From an uncultured Eubacteriales bacterium (GTDB lineage: Bacteria > Bacillota > Clostridia > Peptostreptococcales > Anaerovoracaceae): 59,268 bases of DNA. Both the position numbers and the translations under genes were made by a program. The notes below the pieces were generated by a model that was not told where the DNA came from, made no database searches, and worked only from the letters and a program-made list of their open reading frames with translations. Position 1 is the first letter of the stretch. Each line of letters opens with the position of its first letter. Location: positions 1 through 59,268 of the forward strand of contig OMXT01000078.1 of the NCBI GenBank assembly GCA_900315125.1, written 5' to 3'. Shown piece after piece: positions 3,679-41,375 of the stretch.

Positions 3679-4117
3679 ACTGCCCAATCATAGGAACTGA
3701 ACCTCTATGCATCTGGGCTTTCCCGCACCTGACCCTTCCCGCACTTGGCTTCTCCGCTGGTACATATCGGATCAAATGTTATATTAGAATCCACTTTCCT
3801 GCCCGATTGATATACTTTTTGCCGTTAGAAAGCGTCTCCCTGAGAGGAATTTATATCAGATGGCCTGAAATCCGGAAATTGATATACTCCCAACAGCTTC
3901 AAAACTGGCCGAGAGTACAAAAATGTGTTCCGGATGGATTGCAAGTTATATCAATCCGGCAATAATGCACAAATTAATATACTCGATAACTGTAACACGG
4001 AAACAAAGTTATATCAGAAACGGCTTCTGATCGAAATAAATATAACTTATGATCCGATTTATGCCAGGCGCCAACTTCGCAGATCGGTGAAGGACAGTCG
4101 AATGCTGAACAGCGGGT
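3679..4117. other. Gene-free stretch holding inverted-repeat array 1
   Basis: No gene is supported here; the 87-codon frame at 3925-4188 crosses the repeat units and overlaps the end of the next gene. The first 85 bases contain a short direct repeat (TTCCCGCACCTGACCC / TTCCCGCACTTGGC). The remainder is array 1. Confidence 0.7.
3766..4058. repeat. Array 1: four inverted-repeat units with fixed 21-bp gaps
   Basis: Each unit is a 9-bp arm close to GTTATATCA, exactly 21 unrelated bases, and the inverted arm close to TGATATAAC. Arms are at 3778-3786/3808-3816, 3850-3858/3880-3888, 3945-3953/3975-3983 and 4008-4016/4038-4046. Left-arm distances are 72, 95 and 63 bp. The whole array is bounded by inverted copies of ATCGGATCA (3766-3774 and 4050-4058), which together with the outer arms give terminal inverted repeats of about 20 bp with three mismatches. 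This would suit a small non-autonomous mobile element, but no clear target-site duplication is visible. Some outer arms run on into CTTTTTGCC. Confidence 0.85.
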
Positions 4118-4903
4118 TCACCATGTCAGGTACTTGCTCCCCTCCCGGACGGTCAGGGCGTTCAGATCATCAACGTGCTCCTCAATAAAATTGCGGACCC
4201 AGTCGGGGTCCGTTTTTGAGTAGTCGCGGAGAGCCCAGCCCATGGCTTTGTTTATAAAGAATTCTTCAGTGCCCATGCAGGCTTCCAGAATCTGAGACAG
4301 CAGTGCGGTGTCGGTCTGCGCCTTCCAGCCCAGCTGGTGTTCTATGGCTGTCCGGCGCACCCAAAGATCCGGATCGGCGGCCCACCGAAGCATGAGGCCG
4401 CCGATCCGCGCGTCCAACCTGCCGATAGTCCCGATCACTTTGGTCAGTACATCGATCGTGTCCCACCACTGGCGGCTCCTCACATATTGCTCGAGCCGCG
4501 GCACGTCGTCCCATATCAGAAACCGATTCATGCGGAGCAGGTAATCACAGACGAAGTACTGCATCTCCCGTCCGGGGTCCTGCCAGCAGAGATCCAGCAG
4601 CAGCCAGTCCACCCGTTTCGCCCGCCGTTCCTGCTTCAGCAGCTCATTATAGATTGCCCGGCGAGCCGGCGTCTGGATGCCGTAAAAGGAAAAGCGGTTT
4701 TTCATGTATGCCGCCATCTGGACCGCCTTGGACGGGTCGCCGCAGCGGGTCATGGCTTGCCGAAGCTGTTCGTACCGGCCGGCGGCGCCGGCACTTTCCG
4801 CTGCCGACCCCGGCGATGCGGAATCCGAACGCGCTGCCGATCCGGGAGGCAGCGCAGACCCGGGTGCGGTCACCGGCCGGTCCGGGCTTTGTTCCCTACT
4901 CAT
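4118..4903 (-). CDS. AlkD-like DNA alkylation repair protein
   Basis: A 261-residue protein of the HEAT-repeat DNA glycosylase (AlkD/DNA_alkylation) family, expected to excise positively charged alkylated bases from DNA in the cytoplasm. The conserved part starts near YEQLRQAM and includes the tryptophan/aspartate-rich helices (WWDTIDVL, WVRRTAIEHQL, FINKAMGWALRDY) typical of the family. The first 40 or so residues are a low-complexity Pro/Ser/Ala linker. I chose the ATG that overlaps the stop of the upstream nitrilase gene (ATGAGTAG) because GGGAG precedes it; an ATG 14 codons further upstream has no such site. It is co-transcribed with the nitrilase gene. Confidence 0.85.
   Translation of the reverse strand: MSREQSPDRPVTAPGSALPPGSAARSDSASPGSAAESAGAAGRYEQLRQAMTRCGDPSKAVQMAAYMKNRFSFYGIQTPARRAIYNELLKQERRAKRVDWLLLDLCWQDPGREMQYFVCDYLLRMNRFLIWDDVPRLEQYVRSRQWWDTIDVLTKVIGTIGRLDARIGGLMLRWAADPDLWVRRTAIEHQLGWKAQTDTALLSQILEACMGTEEFFINKAMGWALRDYSKTDPDWVRNFIEEHVDDLNALTVREGSKYLTW
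4873..4896 (+). repeat. Copy of dispersed CTTTGTT motif
   Basis: CCGGTCCGGGCTTTGTTCCC lies inside the unconserved 5' end of the alkD-like gene and touches the end of the nitrilase gene. Confidence 0.55.
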
Positions 4904-5699
4904 AGAACTGCTCCCGGCGGACAGCGGACCATTGCTTTCGCTCACGGGACCGCAGCGCCTCCGAAAGGTCGATGTCGCAGGTGACCACCTGGCGGGCGTC
5001 GTCCGCCTTCACGATCAGGTCGCCCTCGGGGCCGGCCACCAGGGACTCCCCGGCGAATTCCATATCCCCTTCCGTACCCACACGGTTGCACATGGCGATG
5101 TAGACCTGGTTGTGCATGGCCTGCACCCGCACCTCCCACTCGAACAGATCCATGGGCTCCGCCTTGCAGTTGGCCGTCGGGATGATGACCAGCTGGGCGC
5201 CCCGGCGGGCGCAGGTCTGGATGCTCTCCGGAATGTGCCGGTCAAAGCAGATCACGATGCCCACCCGGCCGAACTCCGTGTCGAACACCTTAAAGCCGTC
5301 CCGGGAAGGCGTGTAATAATCCTGCTCGTAGAACCGGGGCGCCTGGAAAATGTGGACCATGTCCGCCTTGCCCCCGATGGTACCGTCGGGCCGGATCCAC
5401 AGAGACCGGTCGTAGCAGCGGCCCGCCTCTTCAATATAGAGATTGGGGGAAATATACTGACTATTGTTCTTCGCCGCCTCCTGAAGCCGCCCGATAAAGG
5501 GATGCCCCATGCTCATTTTATAGTTATCCACATCATACGGCGTGTTTCCCGCCGGGTACTGGGCGAAAAAAGGCGTGACCTGCACCTCCGGGAATATCAC
5601 CATGTCGCTATCCGCCGCCTGATCACAGATGCGGACCGCCCGGGCTTCGTTAGCCTCCACACTGGGACTGACCTCGATCTGCGCCATACTTAATCTCAT
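4896..5699 (-). CDS. Carbon-nitrogen hydrolase (nitrilase superfamily)
   Basis: A 267-residue cytoplasmic amidase of the nitrilase superfamily. The catalytic triad is readable: Glu in IFPEVQVTPF, Lys in GGKADMVH and Cys in IVICFDRHIPE. Substrates of such enzymes range from N-carbamoyl compounds to omega-amides, and the sequence alone does not decide. The start at MRLSMAQ is preferred because GGAGG sits 8 bases before it; a GTG three codons upstream overlaps that site. The alkD-like gene overlaps its stop, so the two form an operon. Confidence 0.85.
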   Translation of the reverse strand: MRLSMAQIEVSPSVEANEARAVRICDQAADSDMVIFPEVQVTPFFAQYPAGNTPYDVDNYKMSMGHPFIGRLQEAAKNNSQYISPNLYIEEAGRCYDRSLWIRPDGTIGGKADMVHIFQAPRFYEQDYYTPSRDGFKVFDTEFGRVGIVICFDRHIPESIQTCARRGAQLVIIPTANCKAEPMDLFEWEVRVQAMHNQVYIAMCNRVGTEGDMEFAGESLVAGPEGDLIVKADDARQVVTCDIDLSEALRSRERKQWSAVRREQFYE

Positions 5700-5886
5700 G
5701 TCAAACACCTCCGACGCACACTTTTGCTCGCTGCGTTCTTTTCTCTATATTGTAACACACTCCCTGCACGATCCGTTATATTTACAGAGATTTAAGTCTG
5801 TTCTGAAATTACAGGCAATTAATTCCTTTGCGCCGTTTGCGGTTCGCTTATCCGTCGATATATTTCCGTTTCTTGATATACTTTTA

Positions 5887-5907
5887 TTACAAAGCCTTGA
5901 CTGGCAA
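5887..5907 (-). repeat. Copy of dispersed CTTTGTT motif
   Basis: ACAAAGCCTTGACTGGC on the + strand. It directly follows TTGATATACTTTT (5873-5885), an arm-like sequence of arrays 1 and 2. A second arm-like string, GTTATATTT, is at 5775-5783, so a decayed repeat locus is possible. Confidence 0.45.
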
Positions 5908-5933
5908 TTATTCGGAATATGGGAGGATAGGCC

Positions 5934-6286
5934 ATGGCAGACATGCTTACCGCGGCGGAATTTGCCGCCGGATGGGGACTGACAACAAGACGGGTGACCG
6001 GGCTCTGCCGGTCCGGAAAGATTCCCGGCTGAATCACTATGGACAGAAATCAGTCCGAAGACTTCCTCTGCCTGTAGGCGTCTCAGACTACCGGAGGGCC
6101 CAGACGGAATATTATTATGTGGATAAGACGCTCCTGATCAAGGACAACCCTCACCTGTCCTTCGGCTTCACCGCCGAGGAGGTTCGTGAACAGATTGCAG
6201 ACTAAAAATACACCGCCGAGCTGTCCGCCCGCGGTGTAAAAGAGATATTGATGTTCGGCGTCGCCTTCTCCGGGAAGAAGGCATGA
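5934..6286 (+). pseudogene. Decayed HTH / AAA-ATPase-like (PF09820 type) gene
   Basis: Fragments of one known fusion type appear in order. From an ATG with GGGAGGATAG before it, 33 codons encode an excisionase-like HTH (MLTAAEFAAGWGLTTRRV...CRSGKIPG). A frameshift follows, then the diagnostic N-terminus of AAA-ATPase-like proteins (PLPVGVSDYRRAQ then YYYVDKTLLIKD). The reading jumps directly to a middle-domain piece (SFGFTAEEVREQIAD), hits a stop at 6203-6205, and continues in frame with the nuclease C-terminus (KYTAELSARGVKEILM, then FGVAFSGKK, stop). The ATP-binding loop and most of the roughly 500-residue protein have been deleted. Recognition is from memory of family motifs; a profile search would confirm it. 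Confidence 0.8.
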
Positions 6287-6315
6287 GTGGAGACGCGTTG
6301 ACATCCTGGCAGTCC

Positions 6316-6360
6316 CATAATCGAACTTTCTCGCAAAAAAGTCGATTTAGTTCGGTTATG
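6316..6360. repeat. Lone inverted-repeat unit, 12-bp arms, 21-bp gap
   Basis: CATAATCGAACT (6316-6327), 21 bases, then AGTTCGGTTATG (6349-6360). The arms match at 11 of 12 positions and differ completely from those of arrays 1-3, but the gap is identical. It starts 30 bp after the decayed AAA-ATPase-like gene. Confidence 0.75.
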
Positions 6361-6395
6361 ACGCAGAAACACCCGACAGATTCCGGACGCATACA

Positions 6396-6437
6396 AACAG
6401 GAAGCGGGATCCTCCCCTTCGGATCCCGCTTCCTGTT
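6396..6437. terminator. Strong intrinsic terminator hairpin, usable from both sides
   Basis: A perfect 17-bp stem (6396-6412 with 6421-6437) around an 8-base loop. The flanks are modestly T-rich. It separates the decayed gene (+) from the hisD-like gene (-) and could end transcripts from either. Confidence 0.6.
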
Positions 6438-6647
6438 CGTTGTTGTTATCGTCTTATGCTATTATTTGAAAGGAATGTATGAGTAGTTTGTATGTCTATG
6501 CTTTCGCAACCCCCTTTGTGATTATTATAATACCTCTCATCGGGGTGAAATAACACGGCGGGGTCGGTGAAATAGACAGTCTATTTCCGCAGGATCAGCA
6601 AACTGCAGGCAGGTAAACCGGCAGTTCACAAATATATCACCTGCGCG

Positions 6648-7907
6648 TCACATCCGCTCTTCCGCTGCACGGGCGTGGCCCATCAGGCCTTCGCCCTTGG
6701 CCATGCGGTCCACAAGGGGCGCGATGGTGCGGGAAGCCTCCGGCGTCATGCTCTGGGATGTACAGACCTTCAGGAACGTTCCAACCCAGACGCCGCCGGT
6801 ATAGCGGGACGCCTTGACGGTGGGAAGGGTGTGGTTGGTGCCGGAAGCATAATCACCGAACACCTCTGCCGTATTGCCTCCCAGGAACAGGGAACCGTAG
6901 TTTACCAGCTGGTCCAGGATCTGCTCCGGATCCTTAATGTTCACTTCCAGGTGCTCCGGCGCGTAGTCGTTGGCTGTCCGGACCGCCTCGTCCAGGTCGT
7001 CCAGAACCACGACTTCGCCATAGTCGTTCCAGGACTGGCGGGCGATGCCGGCAGTTTCCAGCTCATCCAGCTCCTCTTCTACCGCAGCGATCGTATCCAC
7101 TGCGGTCTTCTCGTTGGTCGCCAGCAGAAAAGCCTTTGCATTCGGATCGTGTTCGCACTGGGCCAGCAGGTCTGCGGCCAGGGTCTTCGGGTTGGCGTTC
7201 TCGTCTGCGATGCACAGGACTTCACTGGGTCCTGCGATGAAGTCGATGCCGATCTGCCCGTAGCACTGTCTCTTAGCCTCTGCGACGAACCGGTTGCCCG
7301 GCCCGACGATCATATCAACAGGCTTGATGGATTCCGTACCATAGGAGAAAGCTGCGATGGCCTGTGCTCCGCCGACGGCATAAATCTCATCCGCACCTGC
7401 CAGATCCATGGCGACCAGGGTTTTGTAGTGAATGGAGCCTGTGCCGTGAACCACCGGTGCCGTGGCGCATACCCTCTTCACCCCCGCAACCTTGGCGGGC
7501 GTGATGAGCATGAGGGCCGTGGAGTACAAAGGATAGCTTCCCCCGGGGACGTAGCAGCAGCAGGACTGCACCGGGATCACCCGCTGGCCCAGGAATATGC
7601 CGGGTTTGGGCTGGAAGTCCCGCAGCTCGCTCAGGGTGCCCCGCTGCGCTTCCGCAAAGGCCCGGATGTTCCCCAAAGCCTCCTTCAGATCCTCGATGTC
7701 CTGGGGGTCCATCTGCTTATATGCCGCATCGATCTCCGCCTGGCTGACCCGCAGGCTCTCCCGGACGCAGCCGTCGAACTTCTCGCTGTAGTCCCTGAGG
7801 GCAGCGTCGCCCTTCTCTATTACGGTATCGATAATGTCTTCTACAGTCTTGCGCAGCTCTCTGCGGTCTTCCGCCGTGCGCTCCTTTGCTTTCTTGATGA
7901 TCTTCAT
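6648..7907 (-). CDS. Histidinol-dehydrogenase-family protein (HisD/HpsN-like)
   Basis: A 419-residue NAD-dependent alcohol dehydrogenase of the HisD family. Family landmarks are intact: [19 protein letters not shown], the catalytic Glu-His pair in [15 protein letters not shown], and a C-terminal His ([10 protein letters not shown]). HisD oxidises L-histidinol to histidine, but no other his gene is nearby, and the C-terminal stretch [15 protein letters not shown] resembles my recollection of HpsN-like sulfopropanediol dehydrogenases more than of classical HisD. I therefore leave the symbol blank. The start (MKIIKKAK) has AAAGGAGAA just before it. It is a single-gene unit ending near the hairpin at 6396. 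Confidence 0.8.
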
Positions 7908-8022
7908 TATTCTGTTCTCCTTTGGCTGATGGGCCGGTTGCATTTTCCGGTTGTGTCGTTTGCCGGATTTCCTGTTTACCGGATGTATGTTCGAACTTTC
8001 TCTTTCCGCAATCTGTATTTCC

Positions 8023-8053
8023 ATTGTATTCCATGGGGACCGCTCCATGTCAA
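8023..8053 (-). promoter_or_regulatory. Possible promoter of the hisD-like gene
   Basis: On the minus strand TTGACA (8048-8053), 19-bp spacer, TACAAT (8023-8028). The spacer is long, so strength is uncertain. Confidence 0.4.
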
Positions 8054-8121
8054 GGAGTGTATTTAATATTTTTGCTCAAAAACATGGTGCTTACTCCATA
8101 TTTTTAGCAGTGGCGCACTTT

Positions 8122-8203
8122 CTACTGGACAATTTTTCAAAAACCGAAATTTTGTCCAGTAGTACTGGACAAAAAGGTCATCCTCACATAAAATGTCCAC
8201 TAG
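8122..8203. repeat. Two inverted half-site pairs upstream of the DUF4143 gene
   Basis: CTACTGGACA (8122-8131), 21 bases, TGTCCAGTAG (8153-8162) form a perfect inverted pair. It is followed at once by TACTGGACA (8163-8171), 22 bases and TGTCCACTAG (8194-8203). The first pair has the same gap as arrays 1-3. The location 35 bp before the ATPase start suggests an operator. Confidence 0.7.
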
Positions 8204-8237
8204 AAGCATTTGCAAACATAAACGGAGGACTCACAGT

Positions 8238-9419
8238 ATGATCAAGCGGGAAAAATATATTGAACCGATCCGTGAATTTTACAGCAGCGATTTAATAAAG
8301 ATCATTACCGGTATCAGACGCTGCGGTAAATCTGTAATTCTTGGGGAAATCTACGATGAAATCCGATCTCAGTCAGATAATATCATTTATCTGGATTTTG
8401 AGGATACCTCCGCTCTTTCCTCCATTCCAGACGGATTATCTCTGCTGCAATACGTTGACGCCCACCGCGGAGACTCTCTGTGTTATGTTTTCCTCGACGA
8501 AGTGCAGCGAGTGAACGGATGGGCGGATGCATGCAAAACCCTTCGCATTCGAAACTGCTCCGTCTTTATCAGCGGTTCTAACTCCAAATTGCTCTCCAGG
8601 GAATTTACGAAGGAGCTGTCCGGACGTTATGTCTCATTCCGTATCAGGCCTTTTGTATATAAAGAACTTCTTGCCTATGGTGAAGAGCTTGATCGGGAAA
8701 TTACCCTTACAGACTATATAGTCTGGGGTGGATTTCCAAAGAGAATTGAATTCGAGAGCGAGCGGGCTCAGCGGATATATTTGAACGAACTGAACGAAAC
8801 CATTATCCTGAATGATATTATTAACCGCTACGCAATTCGCAAAACAGAAGTATTTAAACGACTGGCCAATTTCATTTTTCTCTCAAACGGAAGGATTCTC
8901 TCCGCACGGTCAATAGAGAAGTATCTCCGAGGTGCCGGTCTCCCATGCTCTGTTACCACAATTACCAAGTACATAGGCTATCTGGAGGAAGCATATGCAA
9001 TCGCTACTGTACGGAAATATTCTGCAAAAACTAAGCGAGAGCTAGAATATTATCTAAAAGTATATGACGAGGATGTTTCTCTGAATTCTATCCGGATAGC
9101 GAATAATCGTTATGACCTGACACATAACTTTGAGAATATCATATATAATGAACTAATTTACATGGGTTACAGCCTTCAGGTCTATCATGACGGCGCCCAC
9201 GAAATAGACTTTGTTGCCGTAAAAGGCAATAAACAGTATTTTATCCAGGTCGCTTATTCCATCGCAGAAGACAAAGCGTATAATCGTGAAATGGATGCTT
9301 TCTCCAATCTCGACAATTCAAATCAGAAAATAATTATCACGAATGATGATATTGACTATAGTACAAGTACAGTACGTCATATCCGGTTCCGGGACTTCGT
9401 ATTGATGCATGAACTTTAG
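8238..9419 (+). CDS. AAA ATPase with C-terminal DUF4143 domain
   Basis: A 393-residue protein of the AAA_14/DUF4143 type. The P-loop is GIRRCGKS near residue 28 and the Walker B region is CYVFLDEVQRV. A winged-helix-like middle part (RILSARSIEKYLRGAG) and a C-terminal nuclease-like DUF4143 region (EIDFVAVKGNKQYFIQVAYS) follow; the D...E/Q-x-K-like pattern seems partly altered (QVA rather than EVK). The family is abundant in gut anaerobes and has no settled function. GGAGG precedes MIKREKY. The gene is AT-richer than its neighbours, which suits horizontal transfer. Confidence 0.85.
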   Translation: MIKREKYIEPIREFYSSDLIKIITGIRRCGKSVILGEIYDEIRSQSDNIIYLDFEDTSALSSIPDGLSLLQYVDAHRGDSLCYVFLDEVQRVNGWADACKTLRIRNCSVFISGSNSKLLSREFTKELSGRYVSFRIRPFVYKELLAYGEELDREITLTDYIVWGGFPKRIEFESERAQRIYLNELNETIILNDIINRYAIRKTEVFKRLANFIFLSNGRILSARSIEKYLRGAGLPCSVTTITKYIGYLEEAYAIATVRKYSAKTKRELEYYLKVYDEDVSLNSIRIANNRYDLTHNFENIIYNELIYMGYSLQVYHDGAHEIDFVAVKGNKQYFIQVAYSIAEDKAYNREMDAFSNLDNSNQKIIITNDDIDYSTSTVRHIRFRDFVLMHEL

Positions 9420-9439
9420 CTGGCAAGAGGAACGAAACC

Positions 9440-10780
9440 ATGAAGATCGGACAGGTCGCCCGCAAGTACGGGCTTTCTAAGGACAATATATATTACTACA
9501 TCAACTACGGACTGCTGGTTCCGCCCCGGGGCGGGACAGCGGGGAGCCAGTATGATTTCGACCAGGAAACGCTGAGGGATCTGGAAATGATCCTGAAGCT
9601 GAAAGAGCTGGACTATTCCCTGTCCGACATCCACCGGATGCTGTCCTTGCGGCGCATCTCCGGCCTGGACAATCCGGAGGACCGGCGGGAGCTGCTGGGC
9701 ATGTACACCAGCCAGCGGCAGCGGTGCGTTCAGAAGCTGCATCACTACGAATCCGTGATCCACCGCCTGGACGAGCGCATTCTGAACCTGACCAGCCGGG
9801 CGGAAGCGGACGAGACCCGGTGCACCGGCGTTCCTCTGTCCATGCTGGGCCTGCTCTGCTGCCCTTACTGCGGCAGGCCTCTTCAGATCGCCAACGTAAA
9901 CATGGACATGGAGTACATTTATGACGCGGATCTGCACTGCAGCTGCGGGGGCGACTGCGGAAACGGCGCGGACAGCCAAGACATAACCGGCGACGGCTCC
10001 AGCAAGTCCGGCTGCTCCGGCAAGTCCTGCGGTCCCGGCTACCGCGCCCGCATAGAAGAGGGCATCCTCATCACGCCGAACGGCTACGCCGGCGAGGTGG
10101 ACAAGCCGGATGTGGGCCGGGAGCTCTACAAGGACCTGCCCCCCTCGCTGATCAGCCTGTTCCAGCGCTCCTACAACTACATGACCGAAGACCTGCGCGC
10201 CCTGGATCTGTCCGGCCGCGTGGTGATGGAGACCTACGTGAACGCCTGGTTCTTCCTCCACAACCACCAGCAGTTTTTCACACCCGGGGGCTACTATATT
10301 GTCGTGGATAAATTCCCCGAGACCCTCGCAATGTACAAAGACCTGATCGACCGTGAATCCTATCATCTGCCCATTCTATACCTGGCAGACAGCTCCCGGA
10401 ACTACCCGCTGAAGCAGGGATCCGTCGATCTGAATATCGACTTCTTCGCCGTAAACGAGCACAACTTCTATTCGGACACATTCCTGCTGGACGAACTGGC
10501 GCCATACATGAAAAAAGGCGCCCATGTCCTGGGCACCTATTTCTGCTTCGATAACGGAGCGCGATCCATGAAGAACCTGCTGGACACCTATCCTCAGGCC
10601 AGCACAAACAACTTCTCCCTGCCCTGGTTCCGGCAGCAGATCGACCAGTCCGGCATCCGCCTGGACCACGAACGGCTCTGCGGCAGCACCACCGATTCCG
10701 GCAACAATCTGGGATTCGGTTTCCATCAGACCGGCGAGAAGCTCAGTCTGGTGGAGTACTTCGGCCGGATGCCGGAATGA
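9440..10780 (+). CDS. MerR-type regulator fused to a methyltransferase-like domain
   Basis: A 446-residue fusion. Residues 1-70 are a MerR winged helix (MKIGQVARKYGLSKDNIYYY) with a coiled dimerisation helix to about 118. A zinc-ribbon-like segment follows (CCPYCG at 140, HCSCGG at 166). After a Gly/Ser/Cys-rich linker, residues 225-446 resemble a class I SAM-dependent methyltransferase of the RlmA/UbiE type, although the glycine-rich SAM motif is degenerate (GRVVMETYVNAWFF). The zinc ribbon before a methyltransferase fold recalls RlmA. It starts 21 bp after the DUF4143 gene, so both may be co-transcribed. Whether it methylates anything or merely senses a ligand is unknown. Confidence 0.7.
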   Translation: MKIGQVARKYGLSKDNIYYYINYGLLVPPRGGTAGSQYDFDQETLRDLEMILKLKELDYSLSDIHRMLSLRRISGLDNPEDRRELLGMYTSQRQRCVQKLHHYESVIHRLDERILNLTSRAEADETRCTGVPLSMLGLLCCPYCGRPLQIANVNMDMEYIYDADLHCSCGGDCGNGADSQDITGDGSSKSGCSGKSCGPGYRARIEEGILITPNGYAGEVDKPDVGRELYKDLPPSLISLFQRSYNYMTEDLRALDLSGRVVMETYVNAWFFLHNHQQFFTPGGYYIVVDKFPETLAMYKDLIDRESYHLPILYLADSSRNYPLKQGSVDLNIDFFAVNEHNFYSDTFLLDELAPYMKKGAHVLGTYFCFDNGARSMKNLLDTYPQASTNNFSLPWFRQQIDQSGIRLDHERLCGSTTDSGNNLGFGFHQTGEKLSLVEYFGRMPE

Positions 10781-10811
10781 GTTTCCGGGAAGTGACTTCC
10801 GGACAGGGATT

Positions 10812-10829
10812 CCCGTCTTTCCTGACGGG
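10812..10829 (+). terminator. Possible short terminator hairpin
   Basis: CCCGTC-N6-GACGGG after the MerR fusion gene; no clear T run. It lies between convergent genes. Confidence 0.35.
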
Positions 10830-10840
10830 CGTTCCGCTCC

Positions 10841-11794: not shown

Positions 11795-11895
11795 TTCTTC
11801 CTCCATGTTATTTGTTTGCCTGATTGACGACCGATTGATCGTCAGCGTCTCGATTACCGGCCGCTCGATTGCCAGTCGAGCTGCGCCTTAGTACG

Positions 11896-12237
11896 AATCG
11901 GATCAAAAGTTATATCATTCTGACCCGAAACGGGTATTTGATAGAACTCTTAGCCTCCGCTGCAGTACCAAATTATATCAAATCGCATGTTCAAGCTCGA
12001 TTGATAGAACTTCAGCCCCAGCCGGGCCTTTGTTCCGCCCTGCTCCGCCTCCAAAATTCTATCATTTTACGCTCTCAGAACCGTGTGATATAACTTCTTC
12101 TATAAACTGGGCTACGTGCTCGTGAAAAGTTCTATTTTATTGCAGCTCTGGGCGCATTTGATATAACTTATGCCTCAGCCCGCCCCAGAAAGTTCTATCA
12201 AATTGAGCTTCGCAGCGCAGATGATATACTTTTTGCC
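11896..12237. repeat. Array 2: five inverted-repeat units with fixed 21-bp gaps
   Basis: Arms are at 11909-11917/11939-11947, 11972-11980/12002-12010, 12056-12064/12086-12094, 12129-12137/12159-12167 and 12192-12200/12222-12230. Every gap is 21 bp and the gap sequences are unrelated. Left-arm spacing is 63, 84, 73 and 63 bp. The arms are the same family as array 1. The first two units pair a TATATCA arm with a TGATAGA arm; the last three have TCTATCA with TGATATA, which is the reverse complement, so orientation flips between units 2 and 3. The array opens with ATCGGATCAAAAGTTATAT, nearly identical to the left end of array 1, and ends with CTTTTTGCC like unit 1 of array 1. Confidence 0.9.
12018..12037 (+). 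repeat. Copy of dispersed CTTTGTT motif
   Basis: CCAGCCGGGCCTTTGTTCCG, between units 2 and 3 of array 2, at the point where unit orientation changes. Confidence 0.5.
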
Positions 12238-12315
12238 TTTCGGCAGCGGTAAAGCGCCGATCAAAGCGCTCCCGACCGACTACTAAGGAAGTCCAGGCGC
12301 AAGACGCCCGGAAAT

Positions 12316-12591
12316 CTACTCCTGGAACTCCACCGTCAGCGCCGGATTCTCTCTGCAGGCGTCGCCAAGCATCCTGCGCAGCCGGTCCATGTATTCCGGC
12401 CCGGCTTCCTTCGCCCCGGCCCAGTTCTGAAATACCAGCTCCGCCGGCCCGTTCCATTCCGTGAGCACGTCATATAAGCTGTCCAGGTTATCGCCGTACC
12501 ACTGCGGCAGAGGCAGAGCCTGCCGGAGCCGCTGGTGGATCTCCTGCCGGCTCCTCACGCCAGACAGATCGATAAAATACTGACTATTCAT
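12316..12591 (-). CDS. Barstar-family ribonuclease inhibitor
   Basis: A 91-residue cytoplasmic protein matching the barstar fold: an N-terminal strand (YFIDLSGVRSRQEIHQRL), the acidic interface helix containing WYGDNLDSLYDVL that blocks the barnase active site, and a C-terminal strand (ALTVEFQE). Its gene lies 28 bp downstream of the barnase-type gene on the same strand, so the pair forms a toxin-immunity operon in the order toxin then inhibitor. Length is normal for the family. Confidence 0.9.
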   Translation of the reverse strand: MNSQYFIDLSGVRSRQEIHQRLRQALPLPQWYGDNLDSLYDVLTEWNGPAELVFQNWAGAKEAGPEYMDRLRRMLGDACRENPALTVEFQE

Positions 12592-12619
12592 GGGTCCCCC
12601 CTTTTATATCCTGCTGCTC

Positions 12620-13180: not shown

Positions 13181-13193
13181 TATTTACAACCTT

Positions 13194-13217
13194 CCCGGCC
13201 GGTCAGGCCTTTGTTTA
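13194..13217 (+). repeat. Copy of dispersed CTTTGTT motif
   Basis: CCGGTCAGGCCTTTGTTTAT, 14 bp before the barnase start. One of the best copies. Confidence 0.6.
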
Positions 13218-13298
13218 TTAAAGCGTAGCAGACTGTGAAAGGTAAAGCAACAGAAAACATATGCCGAGTTCAGGAACTATGGCGCCTGCTGCACCTTT

Positions 13299-14669
13299 TT
13301 ACTTCCAGTTTGCACCCGTCTGGTTGACCTTATTTTCACTTTTGCTTCTCAGAAATCTTTTCAGAAGAAAGCTGCAGTAATGCGGGAACGTATAAATATT
13401 GTTTTCGTATCCGATATTCCCCCGCTTGATCTTGATGCCCCATTCAATTTCAGGATATGATCTGCTATTGATCATTGTCTTAAGCGATCTGGCGTGTGCA
13501 TCACCCGCTTTAACTTCGATTGGCACCAGATTTTTTATGGTTCTGCCGAAGAAATCCATCTCGAGAGTCGAGTTTTCTTTCTTATAGTAGAGGAGCGGCA
13601 TATCTGCCTTGACCATCGCCTCCGAAACGATACTCTCGTAAATAGCACCTTTATATGTTCCAAGGTTCTTGTTTGCTCTCAAATCGTATTGGACTTCATC
13701 ATCGAGCTGGGCGATCAGGAGTCCCGTGTCCCTGAAGTAGATCTTGTATTTTTTCTCGTCATAATTACCCTTAAGGGGCAGCTCCGGCGAAGCCATGCAA
13801 TAGCATACGCTGGTGATTCCGGCTCTGTTCAGCCAGTCTATACAACCCCAGTAATCTTTGAACCTTGCTCCGCGAGCAACTTTGGAAATCTGGAATTTCT
13901 TATTATCCTTCCCCAGCTGAACCGGTATGTGATTGAAAACATTAAGGATCCTTGCCTGTTCAAGTCCCTTGGTATACTTGACAATATCTTCTTTGTAGTC
14001 CTCAATGATCTGCCTTTGGATTTCCAGTGTACCGCCGAAATTGCCCGTTTCAACGAACTGTTTCACCACGGCGGGCATTCCTCCGAGAATAACATAGTCA
14101 AGAAATCTGCTGTACATCAGTTCGTGGAATGAATTGGACAAAGGTTCCACAGACTGCATATGCGAAAAAATATCTTCAACCAATTCATCATCATACCCCA
14201 ACGCCCAAAGGTACTCATGGAAATCCATGGAATCCATTTCATAATCCGATTTATATCCCACACTGTTGCTCTCGATCTGCCGATAGCTTACTCCGAGCAG
14301 CGAACCGCTGCAGATCACGTCGTATCTCCCGTCCGTCTTGAAGAACTTGAGCGACGTCGCGATGTCCGGATTCGCCTGGATCTCGTCAAAGAAAATCAAT
14401 GTTTTTCCAGGAACGAAAGTCAGGGAAGGATCGATCCTTGTAATACTCTTAATAACAGATTCCGCGCTATATCCGTCTTCTGTAATACCGAGAAACTTTT
14501 TATCTCTGACAAAATTTATTTCGATGCAATGATCATAATTCGCGTCAGCAAAATGCAGAATGCTCTCCGTTTTACCGACCTGTCTGGCGCCCTTGACGAT
14601 CAAAGGCCTTCGATTGCTGTCATTTTTCCAGTCTCTCAGATAGTCATCTATATGGCGCTTCAAATACAT
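13299..14669 (-). CDS. AAA ATPase with C-terminal DUF4143 domain
   Basis: A 456-residue second member of the AAA_14/DUF4143 family, only distantly similar to the one at 8238. The P-loop is VKGARQVGKTESI, Walker B is LIFFDEIQANPD, and the C-terminal nuclease-like region reads TLEMDFFGRTIKNLVPIEVKAG, with the D-x(n)-E-V-K pattern intact here. The start MYLKRH is preferred because GGAGGAAAG lies before it, inside the in-frame ATG upstream. Three direct repeats upstream (14700-14773) may be its operator. The function of the family is unknown. Confidence 0.85.
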   Translation of the reverse strand: MYLKRHIDDYLRDWKNDSNRRPLIVKGARQVGKTESILHFADANYDHCIEINFVRDKKFLGITEDGYSAESVIKSITRIDPSLTFVPGKTLIFFDEIQANPDIATSLKFFKTDGRYDVICSGSLLGVSYRQIESNSVGYKSDYEMDSMDFHEYLWALGYDDELVEDIFSHMQSVEPLSNSFHELMYSRFLDYVILGGMPAVVKQFVETGNFGGTLEIQRQIIEDYKEDIVKYTKGLEQARILNVFNHIPVQLGKDNKKFQISKVARGARFKDYWGCIDWLNRAGITSVCYCMASPELPLKGNYDEKKYKIYFRDTGLLIAQLDDEVQYDLRANKNLGTYKGAIYESIVSEAMVKADMPLLYYKKENSTLEMDFFGRTIKNLVPIEVKAGDAHARSLKTMINSRSYPEIEWGIKIKRGNIGYENNIYTFPHYCSFLLKRFLRSKSENKVNQTGANWK

Positions 14670-14699
14670 TTTTCTTTCCTCCATAAATAAATGTTACTA

Positions 14700-14773
14700 T
14701 TTTATGAGTCATATTTCAATATATTTTACATTTTTATGAGGCATCATCCTTCACTTTTTCACGATTTTATGAG
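14700..14773. repeat. Three direct repeats upstream of the DUF4143 gene
   Basis: TTTTATGAG at 14700, 14732 and 14765, spaced 32 and 33 bp (about three helical turns). Likely regulator binding sites for the leftward gene. Confidence 0.55.
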
Positions 14774-14961
14774 TATTGACTGACTATTGTATGATTACTG
14801 CTGGGCCTGGACGGGACGAACCAGGGACAGGACCCTGTTATTTTACACAGCCCGTACAAAGTCTTTCTGGGGATTTTTCCATCATATGAGATAATACAAT
14901 TGTATATTGTAACCATATTACAGGGCCGATATCAAAGCCCCATACAGAAAGAAGGAAAGTT

Positions 14962-15987
14962 ATGAAGAGAAAGTTTATGACCCTGCTGCTCACTGCCGCG
15001 GTCAGCGCCACCATGCTTCTGGGCGGCGCCGGATCAGCCTTTGCAGCAGACGGAAGCAGCGCAGCTTCCGCGCCCGGGGCGAAAACCGCCGCCGCATCGC
15101 AGACCAGCGCCGACATGTCCTCGTCTGTCGCCAGCGCTGCCGCAAAATTTGCCGCTGCCGCCGAGCAGAATACTCTTACAAGCCGCACCGGTCATGTTAT
15201 GGAAATGACAGAAGACGACATTTACTACAACCCCGCTTCCGGCACGGTGATCGATCTGGAAGACACGGGCGATGTGGACAACATTGATATGAAAGGGATC
15301 GTGCTCTCCAGTCAGCCTGCAAAGGGATACTACGTTCTGTACCGCTTCGTGCCGAAGCATTCCGGGATCCTGGCATTCAGCCTGACCAGCGGCGGATACT
15401 CCCAGCTGCTGAATTCGAAAAAAGAGGCTTTGTCCTCCCGCGACATTATCTCCAACAACCCAAACACTACGTCCACTTCGACGACCCTCAACCACACCAG
15501 CTACGGCGTGACGAAGGGCAAGACCTATTATATCAAAGCCCAGTACACATCCGCGACCTACAGCAGCGAAACCAAATATTACATCGCTACCGGCGGCGCT
15601 GTCAGCGCTTCCTGCACCGGCGCCTACGGCAAGAAGGCATCCAAAGCGTCCACGCTGAAGAAGGGCAAGAGCCGGGACGGTTACATCGAGCCGAAGGGCG
15701 CTGCCAAGTACTATAAGCTGTCAACAAAGGCTAAAAATGTGAAGATCTACATCAATGGTGATTCCAACAGCGACGAAGGTCTGAAAGTCACTGTCACTTA
15801 CAAGATCAATAAGAACAAAGCGAAGAAATACACCATGCGGATGACCCGCTACAAGACCAGCAATGGATGCAAAATCTACACCGTGCCCGCCCGCAAAGCC
15901 CGGATCCGCGCGACCATTAAGGTTGCTCCAGCCAAGTCCGGCGCTTCCGGCGCATACACGCTGAAATGGAACAACTGGTCTTTTTAA
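14962..15987 (+). CDS. Secreted protein of unknown function with beta-sandwich-like repeats
   Basis: A 341-residue exported protein. Residues 1-29 are a signal peptide (TMLLGGAGSAFAA), followed by a low-complexity Ala/Ser region to about residue 70. Two or more beta-rich segments follow, with repeated phrases such as YYVLYRFVPKHSGILAF, TKGKTYYIKAQY and GAAKYYKLSTKAKNVKIYI, reminiscent of pre-peptidase C-terminal or bacterial Ig-like domains. No catalytic motif is seen. AAGGAAAG precedes the ATG. A broken paralogue lies directly downstream. Confidence 0.7.
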   Translation: MKRKFMTLLLTAAVSATMLLGGAGSAFAADGSSAASAPGAKTAAASQTSADMSSSVASAAAKFAAAAEQNTLTSRTGHVMEMTEDDIYYNPASGTVIDLEDTGDVDNIDMKGIVLSSQPAKGYYVLYRFVPKHSGILAFSLTSGGYSQLLNSKKEALSSRDIISNNPNTTSTSTTLNHTSYGVTKGKTYYIKAQYTSATYSSETKYYIATGGAVSASCTGAYGKKASKASTLKKGKSRDGYIEPKGAAKYYKLSTKAKNVKIYINGDSNSDEGLKVTVTYKINKNKAKKYTMRMTRYKTSNGCKIYTVPARKARIRATIKVAPAKSGASGAYTLKWNNWSF

Positions 15988-15988
15988 A

Positions 15989-16599
15989 ATGCCTGCAAGC
16001 GGAAAGTTATACGTAAGAAACAACCTATCTGCTTCCCTCTATGTTAAGATCTATAAATCAGACGGCAAGACCTGCATATCTGCTCCTTCCACTGATAGCA
16101 CCGGGACATCGCTGAGCAGCAGTAATAATTATTTGCTCAACGGATATGGTCTGAAAGCCGGGACATATTATCTCGCAGTCAAGACGTATTCTTCGTCATA
16201 TTCATTTGATATTAAATATGCTCCAGTAAGCTCGCCGAAAAACACCTCCAAGAGCAAGGCTAAGACGATGAAGACTAAGAAAACGTATAAAACTCTCGTC
16301 ACTGCCGCGCCAAGCATACTCAGTGGTTTAAGTATAAACAACCTAAGACAAAGGCCCTAAAAGTTAAAATCAGTGCAGCAGGCATACCTCGCACTACTAC
16401 ATCCAATCAAGGAATTAAAATCACCGCTTATTGTGGGAGCAAGAAACTGGGAACGACAACCTTCTATCCTGGTAATACAAACACCTTGACTGTGACTTAC
16501 AGCACTAAGTACGGCAAGGCCAAGAAAGGCACCTATTACTTCAAGATCACCAGCCTGTCCAAGTACACCGGCGGAACCTACACGATCAAGAAGCTGTAA
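15989..16599 (+). pseudogene. Frameshifted remnant of a paralogue of the upstream secreted protein
   Basis: An open frame at 15989-16360 (ASGKLYVRNNLSASLYVKIY ... GLKAGTYYLAVKTY) lacks a signal peptide and ribosome site. The reading shifts at about 16310 to another frame (SKHTQWFKYKQPKTKALKVK ... KKGTYYFKITSLSKYTGG) and ends at 16599. The same beta-sandwich phrases occur in the upstream gene, so this is the 3' half of a tandem duplicate with a lost 5' end and one frameshift. Codon use is AT-richer than in the intact copy up to about 16450. Confidence 0.7.
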
Positions 16600-16644
16600 T
16601 CATCTGCAGTAATCAAGAATATCTGAACAAAACGCACATTAAAC

Positions 16645-16682
16645 AACCGGCCAGGGGTCATCACCCGAGGCCGGTTACTTTT
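16645..16682 (+). terminator. Rho-independent terminator
   Basis: AACCGGCC (16645-16652) pairs with GGCCGGTT (16669-16676), followed by ACTTTTT. It ends the secreted-protein locus. Confidence 0.75.
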
Positions 16683-16732
16683 TGTCTGTTTTACTGGACG
16701 TTTCGGTGTTCCACTGCCGAACAGGTACAGCT

Positions 16733-17332
16733 TTACAGCTTCTCAAACACGTCGGTGCCGTGTTTACAGATGGGGCAGACGAAATCGTCAGGCAGCTCCT
16801 CGCCTTCGTAAACGTAGCCGCAGATGGTGCAGACCCAGCCGGTCTTCTTCTCCGCGGGCTTGCGGGAGGGCTTGATGTTGTCGAAGTAATACTGGTAGGT
16901 GCAGGAAGGTGCATCGGAGATGTCGATCTGCTCCGTTACTTCGCCGATGAAGATCGTGTGAGTGCCCACATCGATGGTCTGGACGACCTTGCAGCAGATC
17001 GCCGCGTTGGCAGTGCCCTTAATATAGTAGATGCCGTTGGCTGCCCGCTCCATATCCGTGAAGCCGTCGAACTTGTCCACTTCCCGGCCGGTCTGCATGC
17101 CGAACCGCTGGAACAGAGAGAAGGGCGTCTCCTGGGACAGGCTGGAAACATTGAATTCCCCGGTCTTCATGATCATGTCATGGGTATAATTGGCTTTGTT
17201 CACGGCGATGCTCAGCTGCAGCGGATCCGATGTCACCTGGAGCGCTGTGTTGATGATGCAGCCGTTGTCTTTGTCCCCGTCTTTCGCTGTGAGAACGAAC
17301 AGACCGTAAGTAAGTTTGTGAATTGCACTCAT
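16733..17332 (-). CDS. hrb: High-molecular-weight rubredoxin (flavin reductase-rubredoxin fusion)
   Basis: A 199-residue fusion. Residues 1-150 form a flavin-reductase-like FMN-binding domain ([20 protein letters not shown] ...), and about 160-199 form a rubredoxin domain with its two iron-binding knuckles (CTICG and CPICK). In Clostridia Hrb passes electrons from NADH to flavodiiron proteins to remove O2 or NO. The start overlaps the stop of the upstream rubredoxin gene by one base (TAATG) with GAGGAG before it, so the two are translationally coupled. Confidence 0.9.
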
Positions 17333-17493
17333 TATTTCTTCTCCTCAAAAACCGCCTTGCGCATTCCGCATACAGGGCACTCATAAGTTTCCGGCAGATC
17401 CTCAAAGGGTGTGCCGGGCGCGATTCCGTTGTCCGGATCGCCTTTGGCCGGGTCGTATTCCCATCCGCAGGCGCCGCATACATAAACTGCCAT
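17332..17493 (-). CDS. Rubredoxin
   Basis: A 53-residue one-iron electron carrier with both Cys pairs (CGACG and CPVCG) and the usual glycine/proline loop ([14 protein letters not shown]). The start MAVYVCG is chosen by length and by AAAGGAC upstream. It is the first gene of a two-gene redox operon with hrb. Confidence 0.92.
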
Positions 17494-17494
17494 A

Positions 17495-18145
17495 TTATTG
17501 TCCTTTCCGGAGGGCTCTCCCTCCATCGCTGTGGTCACGGCTGTCTCGGAACATTACGCGGTCCCAGACCACTGTAGCCGTCATTAGTAAACAAAGCCCC
17601 ATGCTCCAGCCTCCGATCACATCGCTGGCGTAATGCACTCCGACGAAGATCCTGCTGAGGCCGATGGCCAGGATCAGGATGACCAGGCAGACCGTCACGA
17701 TGCGGGCTGCCTTTCTGTCCTTTTCCTCCCGGCAAAGCCGCCAGATCAGGTAGATGAGCATCCCGTAGAGGACCAGGTTATTCATGGAATGTCCGCTGGG
17801 GAAGCTGTATCCGCCCTGGGTGATCAGGCGCAAAGCCTCGTCTGGCCGGGGCCTGGCGAATATGGTCTTCAGCACCTTGAAAAGTACAGCTGAAACGATC
17901 ACTGCCGCTGTCGTCGGAAGACCGACCGTCTTTCGCGTCCGGGGCAGGATCACAAGGACTAAGAGTATTGCTACCACAGTTACCGTGTTCCCCCAGTCCG
18001 TGATCGCGATCAGGACGGGCACCGTCACTGTGTTCCGCAGCCCGTAAAACCAGTAGTCCACGGCATGATCGAAGGATTCCGTCATGCCTCCTGCCACAAG
18101 CCAGGCGTCTGCGCAGAATACAGCGAGCCCGAGGACGGCGATCAC
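17495..18145 (-). CDS. PAP2-family membrane phosphatase
   Basis: A membrane phosphatase of about 216 residues with five or six hydrophobic helices and the three acid phosphatase motifs: [20 protein letters not shown] and [13 protein letters not shown]. It likely dephosphorylates undecaprenyl pyrophosphate or phosphatidylglycerol phosphate at the outer membrane face. The start is uncertain. The first canonical codon is GTG at 18143-18145, which lacks a ribosome site, while a perfect GGAGG at 18196-18200 sits 8 bases before an in-frame ATA at 18185-18187. An ATA start would add 14 plausible residues. Confidence 0.85.
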
Positions 18146-18359
18146 CAGCCGGATCCGGCAGCTGCAGCTGTCTGTTATCTTCTCTATCTCCTTAACCTCC
18201 TTTCGCTTTTACCATAATTATATCAGCGGAAGGAGTCCGGTTCTACCCATTTAATGACATTTTGGAAAGGAAAATATGAAATATCTGTGAATTGAGGCGG
18301 CAGGAGAATTGTCTGTCTGTTGATTGACGGGATTCTGCGCCGGATCCTGCGGCTCCAGC

Positions 18360-19142
18360 TTACTCCGCTTCTGATTCCTCTGCGCCGATCTCTACCGTCT
18401 TCATAGATGCGATCCGGACATTGCCCTTCTTGTTCTTATGAACGGTGACAATGTCGATCTCCGGCTCGGCATCAGGAACCGCAGCAGTTACGCGGTAAAG
18501 GGCGATATAATCCGTGCCCTTATGTGCCTTCTTCCCGAGATAGGCGATGGGGGTATAATCGCATCCGATCATGCTGCGGAACGCCTTGCGGAATGCCCGG
18601 TTCGCGGACTTATTACGGCTGAGAGCGATCTTCCCCTTATTCACTTTGATTCCTTTGGTCAGCTCCTGGGTGCCGATGATCTCCGCATTTCCTTCCAGAT
18701 CTTTATATACATATACAAGCTCCATGACTGGCGCGGCGCCGGGTACGACTGCCTCATCTCTGCAGAGCAGGCAGTAATTGGTTCCTGCCACAGTCTGGGA
18801 TCCGATATAGGCCAGGGGCTTATAGGAATATCCCAGCAGATCCGCCGAAGCCTTCTGGAGCGCCCTGACCGCATCCTTGTGTTTCTTCAGGGAGAATGAT
18901 CCTTGAGTGATCTCCCACCCGCCGTCGATTACGCTGTCTTCCTGTGATTCCTCCGCAGCTGCCGCTGTGCCCGCTGCCAGCGCGGCTGCAGCGCTCTGTG
19001 CAGAAACCGCGCTCCCCGCGCTGGCCGTTCCTCCTGCGCTTCCGCTCCCCTGGGGACTTGCGGCGAAGGCTGCGCAGGGGATCATCATGGCTCCTGCCAC
19101 GGCGACAACGATTGCTTTCTTTCTTATGTCATGTTTCTTCAT
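18360..19142 (-). CDS. Secreted protein with two internal repeats, unknown function
   Basis: A 260-residue exported protein with signal peptide (AMMIPCAAFAAS) and an Ala/Ser/Gly-rich linker to about residue 70. Two copies of a domain of about 70 residues follow; each reads roughly A-L/F-x-K-A...GYxYxPLAYIG...GTNYxLLCR or the equivalent GCDYTPIAYLG...GTDYIALYR, then a strand VYVYKDLEGNAEI / IVTVHKNKKGNVRI. No family is recognised with confidence. The Ala/Ser linker style matches the other exported proteins of this window. Confidence 0.7.
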   Translation of the reverse strand: MKKHDIRKKAIVVAVAGAMMIPCAAFAASPQGSGSAGGTASAGSAVSAQSAAAALAAGTAAAAEESQEDSVIDGGWEITQGSFSLKKHKDAVRALQKASADLLGYSYKPLAYIGSQTVAGTNYCLLCRDEAVVPGAAPVMELVYVYKDLEGNAEIIGTQELTKGIKVNKGKIALSRNKSANRAFRKAFRSMIGCDYTPIAYLGKKAHKGTDYIALYRVTAAVPDAEPEIDIVTVHKNKKGNVRIASMKTVEIGAEESEAE

Positions 19143-19338
19143 GGTATACCTCTCTTGCTTTAGCTGTATTTTATCATCTTCTGCTATATATACAGTTCAG
19201 CGCCGCAAAATGCTGCAATAGTTTTAAAAAAATTTCTGCTGTCCGACCGGCAAGGGGGTCCCAAACGAAAACCGTGACTTTTTGCCCTCTACCGTCTATA
19301 ATTATAAGTGTATTCTGACTGAAACAAAGGAGAATTTT

Positions 19339-20115
19339 ATGGGTAAACTCAAGAATCTTCCCGATGGGATCCGCCTGCTGAATTCCATCCGCGTATTCAA
19401 CCGCAGCATCCCTGAAATAGACAAGGCACGGGCGTCGGGCAATCCTCAGCTGGAGCGCCAGACCATCGCTCACTACACAGAGCTCTGGGCCAGGAACGTG
19501 GCCGACATGTTCCATATGGACATCATCGTCGAAGGGACTGAAAATATCCCTGCAGAAGACGGGTTTGTGTTTATTTCCAATCATCAGGGGTATGCAGATA
19601 TTATAGCACTGCTGATTGCAGCGCCGGGACGCCAGATAGGCTTTGTTGCCAAGGATTCCCTTGCAAAAGTTCCCTACATCGGGCAGTGGATCAGCCGCAT
19701 CCGCGGCATGTTCATCTCCCGGGGAGACGCCAAGGCAGCGCTCCGGACGATTCAGGAAGGAGCCAAGACCGTAAAGAACGGCTTCAACCTGATCATATTC
19801 CCGGAGGGCACCCGGAGCCGGGGACCCCAGATGGGAGCGTTCAAGCCCGGCAGCTTCAAACTGGCAACCAAGGCCAAGGCGCCTATCGTGCCTGTGGCGA
19901 TCAGCGGTTCCTATCACGTATATGAGGAGAAGGGATACGCTCAGCCGGCGACGATCCGCGTTTCTATTCTTCCACCGGTCAACACGGCGGAGCTGAGCAG
20001 ACACGAGATCACAGAGGCGGAGAAGAGCGTGGAGCAGTCCATCCGGCAGGAACTGGTACGACTGACCCGAATGGATGAACAGGAGAAGAACGATGTTAAC
20101 GATCACGACAAGTAA
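19339..20115 (+). CDS. plsC: 1-acyl-sn-glycerol-3-phosphate acyltransferase
   Basis: A 258-residue membrane-associated acyltransferase making phosphatidate from lysophosphatidate. Motif I is NHQGYAD (HX4D), motif III is FPEGTRS, and VPVAISGSY is the usual motif IV. AAAGGAG precedes MGKLKN; an in-frame ATG 19 codons upstream has none. The thioredoxin gene begins inside its 3' end (23-bp overlap), which points to one operon. Confidence 0.85.
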   Translation: MGKLKNLPDGIRLLNSIRVFNRSIPEIDKARASGNPQLERQTIAHYTELWARNVADMFHMDIIVEGTENIPAEDGFVFISNHQGYADIIALLIAAPGRQIGFVAKDSLAKVPYIGQWISRIRGMFISRGDAKAALRTIQEGAKTVKNGFNLIIFPEGTRSRGPQMGAFKPGSFKLATKAKAPIVPVAISGSYHVYEEKGYAQPATIRVSILPPVNTAELSRHEITEAEKSVEQSIRQELVRLTRMDEQEKNDVNDHDK

Positions 20116-20401
20116 TTTTGAGGAAAAGGTCCTTAAGTCAGATAAGCCCGTATTTCTGGATTTCTGGGCTACATGGTGCGGTTTCTGCACCCAGCTGGCT
20201 CCCACGGTTGATGAACTGGAACAGGAGCTGGGCGATAAGTATGTTTTCGGAAAGGTAAACGTAGACGAGGAGCCCCAGCTGGCGGCTCAGTTCGGGATCA
20301 TGAGCATCCCTGTCACCATGGTCATCGAGAACGGCGAGCTTCGCAGCAAGGTCATGGGCGCTTACCCCAAGGAGGAGCTGAAGAAGCAGCATAATCTGTA
20401 G
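20093..20401 (+). CDS. Thioredoxin-like protein with WCGFC active site
   Basis: A 102-residue thioredoxin fold with active site FWATWCGFC and the cis-proline (SIPVTMVIENGE). The usual WCGPC has Phe in place of Pro, which normally shifts the redox potential. The start MLTITTS follows GGAGAAG. It is translationally coupled to plsC. Confidence 0.88.
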   Translation: MLTITTSNFEEKVLKSDKPVFLDFWATWCGFCTQLAPTVDELEQELGDKYVFGKVNVDEEPQLAAQFGIMSIPVTMVIENGELRSKVMGAYPKEELKKQHNL

Positions 20402-20428
20402 AAAAATTGCCCGGGCTGACCCGGCAGG

Positions 20429-20470
20429 CTGGTTCAGAAAGACGAATTGCCTTTTCGGACCAGTCTTTTT
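20429..20470 (+). terminator. Rho-independent terminator after thioredoxin
   Basis: CTGGTTC (20429-20435) pairs with GGACCAG (20457-20463), with further A/T pairing inside, followed by TCTTTTT. Confidence 0.65.
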
Positions 20471-20601
20471 CATTGTCGCGTTTCTAGGCGGGCGAGTCAG
20501 CGACATGTTTGCCGTCAATATTGACGCGCATATAGCCAGCGCATAAATGTACGCAGCCATACACGCCGGAACAGATTCCTTTTCGCTGTTTTCTCTTGAG
20601 T

Positions 20602-20966
20602 TTTCGGTGTTAACTGTAGTTTTCCACTTTTCCAACGAATGGCTTCCGGAGATATTTCGGTGAAATTCCAAGATTCTGCGATTACCACCAAAACAATCAT
20701 TCCATTGCCGGCAGCTGAGCTGAGTAATAACCGCGAAACTGTATAATATTAGAAGGGTGTGCACGGAGCAACTAGAAGGAGCCGCCCTGAACAAAGCATT
20801 ATTTGACATTTTCACAAAATATCAGGCGAATAAATATTCCCGTTCCCGAATATCGTAGAATTGGTGATGCAGGCTTTCGGTGGAAAACCGGAAAAAGAAC
20901 GATACCACCGAAAACGGTCACGAACTGTTTCGGTGGTATTTTGATATATCGGCAATATCACCCAAA
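20602..20966. repeat. Array 3: four inverted-repeat units, new arms, 21-bp gaps
   Basis: Arms follow TTTCGGTGG and its inverse CCACCGAAA: 20602-20610/20632-20640, 20655-20663/20685-20693, 20875-20883/20905-20913 and 20928-20936/20958-20966. All four gaps are exactly 21 bp although the arms are unrelated to arrays 1 and 2. Unit 3 has perfect arms; the others have two to three arm mismatches. Left-arm spacing is 53, 220 and 53 bp. Units 3 and 4 also create a 12-bp perfect inverted repeat between them (20902-20913 with 20928-20939). Confidence 0.88.
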
Positions 20967-41363: not shown

Positions 41364-41375
41364 AAAGAATAATTC

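Follow-up and report, generated by a model that had tools for sequence, protein, structure and literature searches.

Many of the repeats dispersed in bacterial genomes are explained as hairpins or as transposon relics. BOX repeats are modular in their make-up, and at the ends of Tn7 or Mu several ordered binding sites are assembled into one complex. Bacterial interspersed mosaic elements (BIME) and repetitive extragenic palindromes (REP) are described, in an excerpt of PMC2817692, as extragenic inverted doublets with a spacer that occur in spaced clusters and bind integration host factor and gyrase; a title among that paper's references also names REP elements as targets of insertion sequences. 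For REPINs (hairpin-forming REP doublets), an excerpt of PMC3116915 calls compensatory changes common, and the BOX, RUP, and SPRITE elements of pneumococcus are presented in part of PMC3049150 as small interspersed repeats with extensive secondary structures that proliferated in one lineage. Here we analyze a stretch of 59,268 nucleotides (contig OMXT01000078.1 of assembly GCA_900315125.1, below called the window) from an uncultured Eubacteriales bacterium of the Anaerovoracaceae, which carries three arrays of inverted half-sites. REP, BIME, and BOX repeats are the nearest known kinds, yet the arrays are different, and on sequence evidence alone they suggest that a protein of fixed geometry binds double-stranded DNA. 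A limited literature search returned no paper on helix-phased arrays of inverted half-sites or on Firmicutes intergenic repeats of this type, and the nearest papers concerned REP and BOX.

The reading that we favor, with a probability of roughly 60%, is that these arrays are dispersed intergenic repeats and that their units are double-stranded sites for a predicted dimeric protein that would stack on one face of the helix. A unit of the first family (family 1) consists of two facing half-sites of 9 to 16 bp, approximately GGCAAAAGTTATATCA, inverted across a gap of 21 bp that is nearly free in sequence. The source genome of the window (G000) is 2.3 Mb in an assembly approximately 98% complete, and the control for all arm-family searches was the reversed pattern in the same genome. 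The pattern GTTATATCA-N21-TGATATAAC was found genome-wide at 53 forward places versus one control place when up to three mismatches were allowed, and at 29 versus none with up to two. Within the fetched loci, 87 half-site pairs have a gap of 21, compared with 0–3 for each of 37 other gaps (8–45). As both these loci and the arm list were drawn from gap-21 matches, the genome-wide reversed control is the cleaner figure. The family-1 excess at gap 21 exceeds chance. Left and right half-site profiles match, with core positions partly fixed by the arm list that picked the units, and in 21 of 85 units the arms disagree at position 4, which is A or C.

The spacing between units is a further regular feature of family 1. 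In the sample used for its anatomy, comprising the window and 18 fetched stretches, the pairs group into 22 arrays of at least two units with 63 spacings. These measure 62 or 63 bp (33 cases), 72–74 bp (18), 83–84 bp (5), and 94–95 bp (4), and 137, 156, and 167 bp occur once each. The classes lie near multiples of 10.5 bp. At this period R is 0.96 (the optimum is 10.4), which none of 20,000 random sets attained; when the 12 distinct spacing values were used, R was 0.91 and again no random set among 20,000 was as high. The linkers between units are 23–24, 34–35, 44–45, or 55 bp long and differ in sequence, so the whole-turn changes look selected. All ten five-unit copies are polar, with outer spacings of 62/63 bp and both inner spacings of 73–94 bp, and their units span 310–342 bp plus short ends. 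Each of them has one GGATC-type end (TAGTACGAATCGGATCA-like), which reads ATCGGATC in eight and is one base off in the other two (C23b and C97). At the opposite end, five copies have GGCAAAA, four have a close variant, and one (C66b) has an unlike sequence. Across family 1, one end is ATCGGATCA-like and the other mostly GGCAAAA-like. Other copies hold four units; as in BOX repeats, the ends are defined and the number of internal modules varies.

Array 1 belongs to family 1 and has four units with 9-bp arms at 3778, 3850, 3945, and 4008 (3778–4046). Its left end motif, GTACATATCGGATCA, occupies 3760–3777 on the + strand and resembles a motif on one end of other copies, and the right end (4047–4065, − strand) holds the ATCGGATCA end motif in inverted copy; this array therefore shows the ATCGGATCA end at both sides. 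Array 2, also of family 1, comprises units at 11909, 11972, 12056, 12129, and 12192 (11909–12230), preceded by the left end motif TAGTACGAATCGGATCAAAA at 11889–11908 (+ strand) and followed by an end of the TTTTTGCC type at 12231–12240. Array 3 represents a second family with TTTCGGTGG arms and units at 20602, 20655, 20875, and 20928 (20602–20966). An earlier, sequence-only reading of this DNA had listed these 13 units in three arrays; all were recovered at the claimed positions with a gap of 21, and the left-arm distances (72/95/63, 63/84/73/63, and 53/220/53) were reproduced exactly. That reading had assigned arrays 1 and 2 to separate specificities, which has to be withdrawn, as both belong to one family. 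Its invariant 21-bp gap holds for family 1 and not for family 2, where the gap is 21 or 22, and its helical phasing stands for family 1 and is no more than putative for family 2 taken alone (R=0.72 at 10.5 bp). The histogram of gaps blind to arm sequence, which it had set as the test, showed no peak at 21 over the window and a 377-kb sample, so on this coverage the test in its original wording fails. Inverted 9-mer pairs with up to one mismatch numbered 19 at gap 21 in the window versus 9–22 across gaps 15–26, and exact 8-mers in 377 kb of fetched DNA of this genome gave 37 versus 18–41 across the same gaps. The generic histogram misses the signal; the excess belongs to particular arm families.

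The second family is also dispersed: TTTCGGTGG-N21-CCACCGAAA occurs at 17 places in the whole genome versus none in the control. In eight loci its gaps are 21 (16 pairs), 22 (11), and 16 (one), with none at other gaps from 8 to 45. The comparison set comprised 17 genomes of the genus. In the sister species (G001), TTTATATCA units occur at seven places versus none in the control, with eight gaps of 21 and one each of 20 and 22. Another species (G006) has GTTCCATGC arrays with a period of 53, in which 18 gaps are 21, nine are 22, and none takes any other value from 8 to 45; one of these arrays is interrupted by an element that looks like the IS21 type. The earlier claim of equal geometry with different arms is borne out by these cases, with a gap of 21 or 21/22 in the two families of the window and in the TTTATATCA and GTTCCATGC units. 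Judged by these sequences, the arms vary among families and species while the 21–22 bp gap recurs. A loose pattern, GTTNNAT-N25-ATNNAAC, was found 24 times versus one control match in the source genome and 12 times versus none in G006; in the other 15 members of the genus, forward counts were 0–4 and controls 0–5.

A genus-wide class of phased dyad arrays can be proposed tentatively. In such a class, paralogous and fast-changing proteins would stand behind the different arm types, keeping the dimer geometry (half-sites 21–22 bp apart) and swapping specificity at approximately five base pairs; each would build a nucleoprotein array on one helix face at numerous intergenic positions, and arrays and proteins would co-evolve. 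Four arm types in G000, G001, and G006 fit this class (GTTATATCA, TTTCGGTGG, TTTATATCA, and GTTCCATGC), and they perhaps share a putative GTT(A/C) core. In a de novo scan for arrays, overlapping registers were counted repeatedly and one shuffle was made per genome. Evenly spaced samples of G006 yielded 358 matches versus 2 in shuffled DNA, at least 218 of them from one locus (L168); G009 yielded 419 versus 2, one of its 20 stretches having been picked for a known array; and G012 yielded 60 versus 2, where the largest clusters are, by eye, repeated DNA resembling insertion sequences. An earlier k-mer scan of G006 (310 clusters versus 71 in one shuffle) was superseded by this stricter scan. On viral contigs, the family-1 pattern was present on one contig as a single unit, the GTTCCATGC pattern on four, two of which (L234 and L236) have two units each, 149 bp apart, and the family-2 pattern was absent. 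Ten GTDB contigs from scattered taxa have one exact place each, which we take as chance, in a scan that possibly left out near relatives.

Whether the units act as DNA or as hairpins was assessed via covariation in 64 units out of 85, after the removal of 21 near-copies or truncated units belonging to six arrays. Family-1 arms pair in 78.5% of cells compared with 80.4% in shuffles, and covariation was 0.097 versus 0.134 shuffled, with 500 of 500 shuffles equal or higher, so compensatory changes as in REPINs are not apparent. Hairpins are unlikely for family 1 because the arms do not covary. When four family-1 units were folded as RNA, one had a z-score below −2 and three were above −1, and Rfam at gathering scores gave no match in the window. 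The idea that conservation reflects DNA half-sites recognized by protein thus held up for family 1, with its matching profiles and a covariation no higher than any of the 500 shuffles; it is supported that family-1 half-sites act as double-stranded DNA sites, and family-2 units may form hairpins. REP/REPIN repeats mobilized by the REP-associated tyrosine transposase RAYT (Y1) via single-stranded hairpins would account for the extragenic inverted doublets, which lie in many copies and clusters on many contigs, for the frequent insertion sequences nearby, and for the folding of a family-2 unit beyond its shuffles (z −2.9). Set against this are the results for family 1, namely no covariation and three of four folded units near their shuffles, and the zero matches to Y1_Tnp (PF01797) in the source genome, with two of 17 genus genomes positive (G006 and G010). 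Such an origin is very improbable for the arrays as a whole, and for family 1 in this genome we rejected the RAYT mechanism on the absence of PF01797 and of covariation. We consider selfish elements, related to miniature inverted-repeat transposable elements (MITE) or to BOX, possible but doubtful: their half-sites would be transposase sites, and the phasing would come from the transposase complex and common ancestry. The polar ends, the dispersal, the likeness of the best pairs of copies (approximately 82–89%), one lineage-specific insertion, and the lack of a consistent gene partner fit this. No transposase with matching ends turned up, in the absence of a genome-wide screen, and diverged copies of approximately 66–70% identity still keep whole-turn spacing. 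Copies therefore probably keep a function once inserted, and this speaks against miniature elements that are merely dead. As to MITE features, each of the ten five-unit copies has two unlike ends, array 1 repeats one end on both sides, and no close empty site was available from which a duplication could be read.

Two further alternatives concern the genes around the arrays, for which open reading frames (ORFs) were called mechanically. Local operator arrays for a regulator of adjacent genes would explain dimer-like half-sites, and malQ-like genes, recognized by eye, adjoin two of the three arrays seen in G006. The neighbors are mostly unrelated, however: among the 105 proteins within 3.5 kb of the arrays (105 of 140 listed ORFs), each Pfam family is represented at most three times, consistent with a trans-acting factor. 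Among 24 arrays, 13 have ORFs on both sides, five convergent, eight co-directional, and none divergent, and the three arrays of the window contain promoter-like matches at close to the chance level. Operators are accordingly unlikely. Chromosome partition (parS-like) sites may come to mind since the window contains the dnaA/parAB origin region, and partition had been suggested alongside silencing or mobile-element roles. Arrays on many contigs speak against it, as do the matches to the parS consensus, TGTTTCACGTGAAACA, which in the window lie away from the arrays at 37049 (perfect) and 35152 (two mismatches). With no consensus match inside the window's arrays, a parS identity was rejected, and partition sites are a very improbable reading. 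A mobile-element role is favored by dispersal, defined ends, and the single lineage-specific insertion. This insertion lies between walJ and rlmH, genes as recognized, which are 483 bp apart here. Of 14 relatives that have an rlmH match, 12 show a spacing of 2–148 bp; in the remaining two, including G009, walJ is not upstream of rlmH. The array copy at this site appears from the comparison to be a lineage-specific insertion. When empty sites were sought for 14 arrays with two flanking genes in fetched stretches of relatives, only the walJ–rlmH pair was found together. The array that G009 has upstream of rlmH is of another kind and repeats every 64 bp.

Under the favored reading of protein-bound units, both half-sites of a family-1 unit, approximately 30 bp apart from center to center, would most likely be gripped by a DNA-binding protein that is dimeric or two-headed and is encoded elsewhere. 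Since the distances between units amount to whole helical turns, several complexes could share one face and might build a joint nucleoprotein structure. The elements may have spread as mobile intergenic DNA and afterwards been kept functional in place. A number of results weigh against this account. No binding protein was found, and neither a target-site duplication nor a transposase was identified, no genome screen for a parent element having been made. Family-1 copies share descent, so their 63 spacings are non-independent and the statistics overstate independence; array 1 (72/95/63) deviates from the 63-x-y-63 plan. The arms pair at 78.5% in register versus 24–44% when slid by 1–3 columns, as expected for any inverted repeat, and both-side changes occur in three of nine family-1 arm pairs (17 cells), which is likewise possible in any inverted repeat. 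For family 2, the single folded unit beats its shuffles, and its 20 spacings, taken alone, make phasing no more than putative (R equally 0.83 at 12.0 and 10.4). Several G009 arrays and a third family of this genome have other geometries, so gap 21 is not universal, and 400 kb of G007 yielded no clear array in the de novo scan (40 scattered matches versus 4 shuffled).

The third family (L094, L095, and L096, flanking an insertion-sequence end) has CGTGGCGATGC-like arms paired at gaps of 13–17 and approximately 50–52. G009 has large arrays between genes (L212, L216, L218, and L230), whose CTGTAGAC/TGTAGAAA arms do not resemble those of the window. The repeat GTGTGTCAAAGGGGACGGTTCTTTTTGACACAC was seen at three G006 loci (L165, L166, and L167); as this genome has two matches to Y1_Tnp, repeat and transposase may form a REP/RAYT pair. 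A single insertion sequence is represented by its two end motifs, GGTTATGCC...GTGTAAATTAG and GGTCAAGTC...GTGTAAATTAG, at 29 places (15 and 14; L092–L120). Fifteen of these 29 have an array of one of the three families within 450 bp, and by eye L095 and L097 can be added. The proximity thresholds were chosen after the data had been seen, and in 600 random windows of fetched DNA they gave 3%, 1.3%, and 0.5%; because these windows were not restricted to intergenic DNA, tolerance of insertion sequences is indistinguishable from targeting.

Two single inverted repeats in the window, CATAATCGAACT-N21-AGTTCGGTTATG (6316–6360) and CTACTGGACA-N21-TGTCCAGTAG (8122–8162), had also been counted as family members. 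This is unsupported, as each has one genome match and folds into a strong hairpin (z −6.4 and −8.4), and the arms at 8122 extend inward to leave a gap of 19; both repeats are best set aside. A putative remnant of an AAA-ATPase_like gene, judged by eye, lies at 5828–6300. The repeat at 8122 is directly upstream of an AAA_14/DUF4143 gene; the two such ATPases of the window (8193–9419 and 13299–14684) match the PADLOC candidate system PDC-S01. Genome-wide, AAA_14 has 21 matches at E≤0.001, of which dnaA is one and several fall below the cut-off, and AAA-ATPase_like has 11. These ATPases were rejected as array-binding proteins, as the 32 fetched loci of both types generally lack gap-21 sites; besides the window's own gene (L040), only L057 has 9-bp arms that match exactly across a 21-bp gap. 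Three of the 105 array-flanking proteins carry AAA_14. The replication-origin region extends over 35240–50228, with dnaA (44340–45707), dnaN, and gyrB on the + strand and parB/parA, rsmG, mnmE, jag, and yidC-type genes on the − strand.

A gap of 21–22 bp in four arm types and three species, together with a whole-turn spacing in family 1 that survives sequence decay, suggests a novel DNA-binding system and raises the question of how specificity changes when geometry stays constant. Like BIME, REP, and REPIN elements, the arrays are extragenic inverted doublets in spaced clusters. They differ from these in that family 1 lacks covariation and mostly lacks a stable hairpin, in that no Y1/RAYT gene was found in this genome, and in the fixed 21-bp gap and helix-following spacings of family 1. 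BOX, RUP, and SPRITE elements are likewise small, interspersed, and modular, but they have extensive secondary structures, whereas the units of family 1 lack the covariation of stems. The ends of Tn7 and Mu offer a parallel in their multiple ordered sites and in the single complex proposed here; in contrast to them, no transposase or cargo is seen, and dyad units with a 21-bp gap occupy the entire element.

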